A DNA stretch of 64,000 nucleotides, taken from Thermodesulfobacterium geofontis OPF15. Lineage in GTDB: Bacteria > Desulfobacterota > Thermodesulfobacteria > Thermodesulfobacteriales > Thermodesulfobacteriaceae. Shown here piece by piece: positions 58,836 to 58,878 of this stretch (position 1 is its first letter; each line of letters opens with the position of its first letter). The position numbers and the translations under genes were made by a program. The notes beneath the pieces were generated by a model that saw only the letters and a program-made list of their open reading frames with translations, was not told the DNA's origin and made no database searches. The DNA is taken from NCBI RefSeq assembly GCF_000215975.1, contig NC_015682.1, positions 1,116,001 through 1,180,000 of the forward strand, in the 5' to 3' direction.

Positions 58836-58878
58836 TTGACAAAAAAAAAAAAAAAAAAAAAAAAAAAATTTATATAAT
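58836..58878 (+). promoter_or_regulatory. Iron cassette promoter with an A28 tract between -35 and -10
   Basis: TTGACA (58836-58841) is followed by a run of A residues from 58841 to 58868 (28 in a row), TTTA and TATAAT (58873-58878). The spacing is 31 bases, far above the usual 16-18, so at this A length the two boxes should not work together. Loss of about 14 A would give a normal promoter. Just after lies AAAATCAA repeated twice (58887-58905 region). Confidence 0.75.

Follow-up and report, generated by a model that had tools for sequence, protein, structure and literature searches.

An A28 expansion in the spacer of a conserved feo promoter may throttle an iron and c-di-GMP gene cassette in Thermodesulfobacterium geofontis

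Thermodesulfobacterium geofontis OPF15 is a sulfate reducer from Obsidian Pool that grows best at 83°C (PMC3624685) and has a closed chromosome of 1,634,377 bp. We analysed a stretch of 64,000 nucleotides of that chromosome (bases 1116001-1180000; the window), in which a homopolymer of 28 adenines (A28) occupies positions 58841-58868 of the forward strand. The segment 58836-58878 reads as a perfect -35 element, TTGACA (58836-58841), whose last base is also the first A of the run, followed by 27 further A, TTTA and a perfect -10-like TATAAT (58873-58878). An earlier note on this DNA had placed the two boxes 31 bp apart, with nearly all of the spacer formed by one A homopolymer, and direct reading bears this out. 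If n is the length of the A run, the spacing to TATAAT is n + 3, and the note's statement that removing 14 A would give a 17-bp spacer (n = 14) agrees with this computation. TAAAAT (58879-58884) is an alternative -10 element with a spacing of n + 9, which is 37 bp at n = 28 and 17 bp at n = 8. It overlaps an array of Fur-like hexamers (ATTGAA, AATCAA, ATTCAA, AATCAA; 58883-58906), a predicted site that takes the form ATTGAAATTnAATTTCAAT in relatives. This array is followed by a Shine-Dalgarno sequence, GGAGG (58910-58914), also read directly, and by a NifX-like gene whose ATG is at 58921. On the reverse strand, TTGACA-16-TAGTAT (58747-58774) forms a promoter-like site for a divergent gene with a bifunctional-nuclease domain, and the A tract lies outside this site.

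The genes downstream are all on the forward strand and have the iron and c-di-GMP content that the earlier note described. The first encodes a Nitro_FeMo-Co protein of the NifX/NifB type (58921-59313; Pfam PF02579, 4e-18) and is followed by genes for a DUF2325 protein (59383-59736; PF10087), FeoA (59712-60029; PF04023), a FeoA-GGDEF fusion with an intact GGEEF motif (60034-60792; PF04023 and PF00990), an HD-GYP protein (60797-61405), a second FeoA (61476-61718; PF04023) and an intact FeoB of 714 aa (61715-63859; PF02421/PF07664, TIGR00437). Both FeoA and FeoB genes are therefore present in the cassette, as in a feo operon. The HD-GYP gene differs from that of all the relatives examined for it by a frameshift close to the 3' end. 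The shift lies at an A6 run (61369-61374) and leaves about 30 conserved C-terminal residues (GAGSQFDPE...) in another frame. The pairing of a FeoA-GGDEF diguanylate cyclase (60034-60792) with an HD-GYP protein in a feo operon is kept in several relatives and possibly couples ferrous iron directly to c-di-GMP. We found no convincing consensus for a further promoter between the NifX-like and DUF2325 genes or elsewhere within the cassette. The gap between these two genes (59313-59383) contains a hairpin, GGATAG...CTATCC, that lacks a T run and is possibly a processing or attenuation element. A second full-length FeoB, of 636 aa, is encoded elsewhere in the genome; its gene directly follows an aminopeptidase-like gene, with no visible promoter of its own.

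We read the regions upstream of the feo operon in ten other Thermodesulfobacteriaceae genomes. These operons have the same -35 element, Fur-like box and gene set as T. geofontis, except that T. geofontis has the NifX-like gene as an extra first gene. A -35 element was present in all ten (TTGACA in eight, TTGATA in one and TTGACT in one), as was a box of the ATTGAAATT type. The spacer has a normal length of about 15-18 bp in the relatives, in contrast to 31 bp in T. geofontis. The distance from the -35 element to the box is 19-22 bp in nine of the ten (G022 being counted at 20 bp, using the box proper) and 27 bp in G002, compared to 41 bp in T. geofontis, where it is about 20-22 nt longer than in its relatives. 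No relative has a long tract at this promoter; between zero and six A follow the -35 element in the ten genomes. In support of the earlier note's reading of this site as the promoter of the iron cassette, the -35 element, the A-rich start of the spacer and the Fur-like box are all kept in the ten relatives. The T. geofontis genome also encodes two FUR-family proteins, and the conserved hexamer array is a putative Fur site.

The closest view of the expansion comes from G008, whose intergenic region between the bifunctional-nuclease-domain gene and feo is orthologous to that of T. geofontis (69% identity, E = 7.5e-15) and has the same divergent neighbour. Exactly 14 nt separate the A run from the box in both genomes, while the runs themselves are 6 and 28 nt long. 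Because the run-to-box distance is equal, the length difference from G008 is the A run itself, approximately 22 A. These comparisons indicate that A28 sits between the -35 and -10 elements of a real promoter. They further indicate that a short A run at the start of the spacer of a conserved, Fur-box-linked feo promoter of the sigma-70 type has undergone a lineage-specific expansion from approximately 6-8 to 28. G010 and G022 have a -10-like TAAAAT that overlaps the box just as the TAAAAT of T. geofontis does. Judging from this arrangement, TAAAAT may be the homologous and ancestral -10 element, working with n near 8, and TATAAT may be usable with n near 14.

The length of A28 is beyond both chance and the background of its own genome. 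The window has 26 A/T runs of length 8 and lacks lengths 9-27, leaving A28 alone above 8. Genome-wide, 44 A/T runs are at least 9 long and just two are at least 12, namely A28 and a run of 34 T (T34). In six simulated genomes of the same size (order-5 Markov), the longest runs were 13-15; because the simulations reach 15 at most, A28 is not a chance result. General inflation of homopolymers in this genome was considered and rejected, as runs of 12-27 are lacking and the other 42 runs of at least 9 are an ordinary 9-11 long. Loss of mismatch repair was likewise rejected as the cause of expansion. MutS (a frame of 866 aa) and MutL (561 aa) are both found in the genome, and this does not point to a general defect in repair.

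The T34 tract (C1:213209-213242; L037:1481-1514) is separated by 7 nt from the start codon of the gene for a TetR-type regulator, which is followed by an RND efflux adaptor. A promoter-like TTGACA and the palindrome AGTAAGT-ACTA-ACTTACT lie upstream of the tract. The regulator of G014 is 92% identical, and a T7 stands at the place matching T34. By this comparison, T. geofontis carries two lineage-specific expansions, A28 and T34, both in operon control regions. Just upstream of the TetR promoter lies an insertion-sequence remnant with GAGGCTGTTTCAAAA inverted ends (L037:629-1414).

Across the phylum, A/T runs of at least 20 occur in 5 of 30 genomes of the family (G000, which is T. geofontis, G007, G019, G023 and G028) and in 7 of 383 other genomes of a phylum sample (Fisher P = 8e-4 in a post hoc test, with several tracts at contig ends and some of the genomes drafts). 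We treat this enrichment as a lead. The T33 tract of G007 is at a contig end and was left out of interpretation. Two long tracts of the family are internal and precede genes that are either signalling-type or unknown. One of these is an A61 in G019, flanked by a GGDEF gene and a divergent chemotaxis-receptor gene, and the sequence TTGAAA-17-TAAAAT follows it directly. In the survey of G019 and G023, we recorded this A61 upstream of the chemotaxis-receptor gene at L157:603-663, a T78 at L163:451-528, about 20 bp away from a start codon, and poly-A/T of 43-72 nt at contig ends (L158-L161). We set aside a T15 in G004, which sits after a GC hairpin and is terminator-like.

What would a 31-bp spacer do to this promoter? 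In E. coli, sigma-70 spacers are 15-21 bp, and activity drops outside this range, although promoters with poor spacers are weakly active, above background (PMC8695583). At n = 28, neither TATAAT nor TAAAAT fits this range, and the cassette is therefore probably throttled. Given that poor-spacer promoters in the library were weakly active, weak rather than zero transcription can fairly be expected. If the sigma specificity assumed from E. coli holds for this phylum, then transcription of the feo cassette is probably weak at n = 28. We consider it rather likely that A28 acts as a mutation-prone throttle on the cassette rather than as a toggle that responds to gain or loss of a single A. With 31 bp between them, the -35 and -10 elements would not be contacted together. 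Transcription of the NifX, DUF2325, FeoA, FeoA/GGDEF, HD-GYP, FeoA and FeoB genes would be strongly reduced, with at most activity from the -10 element alone remaining. A long mononucleotide tract would be unstable in length, and contraction to n of about 13-15 (for TATAAT) or 7-9 (for TAAAAT) would restore the spacing. Shorter, active promoters could then arise and come under selection whenever iron import is in demand, and the second full-length FeoB would make the throttled state tolerable in the meantime.

The strongest rival to a mutation-prone throttle is decay or adaptive loss, in which the cassette is dispensable or harmful during iron-rich, sulfidic growth and spacer expansion is one of many breaks, with no return to an active state. 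Three sister isolates carry three different lesions in the cassette. G013 (L089) has a stop in the DUF2325 gene, T. thermophilum (L090/L031) has GGG in place of GGGG where FeoA-GGDEF encodes GGEEF, and T. hveragerdense (L098/L034) has lost FeoB residues 35-161 and has a frameshift in addition. With G010 as the reference, 3 of 15 cassette genes are broken in these isolates compared to 0 of 90 flanking genes (Fisher P = 0.0024), a comparison that was made after the lesions had been seen, which weakens the case for decay. The one-base lesions may also be sequencing errors, but the FeoB deletion is not easily explained as one. Within T. geofontis itself, the frameshifted HD-GYP gene and the existence of the second FeoB agree with decay, while the intact FeoB, FeoA, FeoA-GGDEF and Fur-like box argue against it, as does the presence of T34 in an unrelated operon. 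Laboratory evolution of a sulfate reducer has been documented, for another trait (PMC5646257). On balance, we regard loss as a serious possibility that nevertheless falls short of probable. Repeated loss or attenuation of the cassette would fit the lesion pattern as well as a switch does. If A28 is just a disabled promoter, then together with the lesions in the sister isolates it would suggest that the feo cassette has been shut down repeatedly in the genus, which matters for inferring physiology from type-strain genomes.

Alternatively, the tract may be functional as it is. Here TATAAT would be used without a -35 element, the rigid A tract would act in the manner of an UP element and the spacing from TTGACA would be irrelevant. 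An A tract before a perfect TATAAT could support transcription independent of the -35 element, which would count against a throttle, and the A61 of G019 offers a parallel in standing directly upstream of its TTGAAA-17-TAAAAT promoter-like site. However, all ten relatives keep a -35 element at near-normal spacing, and the T. geofontis promoter has no TG extension. We find this explanation fairly unlikely.

An evolved phase-variation switch would require that the tract be kept for reversible bet-hedging, with iron uptake and the c-di-GMP enzymes turned on and off in single cells. The anatomy matches that of known spacer switches. In Neisseria porA, opc and fetA, a homopolymer lies in the -35/-10 spacer, and fetA is an iron-uptake gene encoding a receptor (PMC2791445). 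At porA, a single nucleotide of tract length matters (PMC3899988). In Mycoplasma hyorhinis vlp, indels in a promoter A tract switch transcription (PMC10502178). A TA repeat in Haemophilus influenzae hifA/hifB alters the -35/-10 spacing, as the run in T. geofontis would (PMC3899988). Each of these systems also differs from A28. The Neisseria tracts are poly-G or poly-C, are near optimal length and have been shown to vary; the T. geofontis tract is poly-A, far over the optimum, and known from one genome of an environmental hyperthermophile, and it stands before genes for a cytoplasmic-membrane Fe(II) importer and c-di-GMP enzymes. The vlp tract is a promoter A tract as in T. geofontis, but it serves a surface lipoprotein family for which ON/OFF switching has been shown, whereas A28 precedes a single non-surface operon and is known from sequence alone. 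The hifA/hifB repeat is a dinucleotide in a divergent promoter for fimbriae. A28 is thus best described as a variant of the established kind of spacer homopolymer that may work like its counterparts, rather than as a proven member.

A toggle would need a tract length no more than one or two units away from a spacing that works. Instead, n = 28 stands against working lengths of 13-15 and 7-9, at least 13 units from the nearest. Because 28 is far from any threshold, slippage by one A would not toggle the promoter. Relatives have no long tract at this locus, which argues against a conserved contingency locus, and a review advises that tracts without demonstrated reversibility should not be termed phase variation (PMC11868660). 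In favour of a switch, operon control regions hold both of the genome's only long tracts, and long A/T tracts recur in the family (5 of 30 genomes, against 7 of 383 others in the phylum sample), two of the internal ones preceding signalling-type or unknown genes. We consider an evolved switch unlikely, and less likely to account for A28 than either a mutation-prone throttle, which we favour, or repeated loss. Since throttling of the promoter can be a stage on the way to loss, these readings are not mutually exclusive, and our confidences in them do not sum to one.

In a broader version of the switch, very long poly-A/T tracts in control regions would serve the Thermodesulfobacteriaceae as hypermutable switches. 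Through A28 and T34, clonal hot-spring populations of T. geofontis would be mixed both for iron uptake with c-di-GMP signalling and for an efflux regulator. We consider this unlikely. If true, contingency based on promoter slippage would exist in a hyperthermophile that is not a pathogen and grows near 83°C. Promoters with spacer tracts are known mainly from host-adapted pathogens, and our literature search found no papers on poly-A spacer tracts in thermophiles. A28 and T34 in a free-living hyperthermophile would offer a test of slippage-based variation at approximately 83°C, outside immune evasion.

Finally, the recorded tract length is a consensus of 454 and approximately 76-nt Illumina reads. 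An artefact of assembly or base calling, with a true run of about 8-15 and a normal promoter, is improbable. In its favour, the genome combines 454 and Illumina GAII data that were merged with Phrap, with 75 PCRs for closure (PMC3624685), homopolymers are the weak point of 454, and 43-72 nt tracts stand at contig ends in another genome of the family. On the other side, the 42 other runs of at least 9 are not inflated, so that a general error must have hit these two sites and no others. A read of approximately 76 nt, at a depth of 3,741x, is long enough to cover 28 A and the bases around them, and both tracts are inside the closed chromosome between unique sequences.

Elsewhere in the window, positions 397-2449 hold a CRISPR-like array with the repeat GTTGAAACCTGCCCTGGATTAAAAGGGATTGCGAC.
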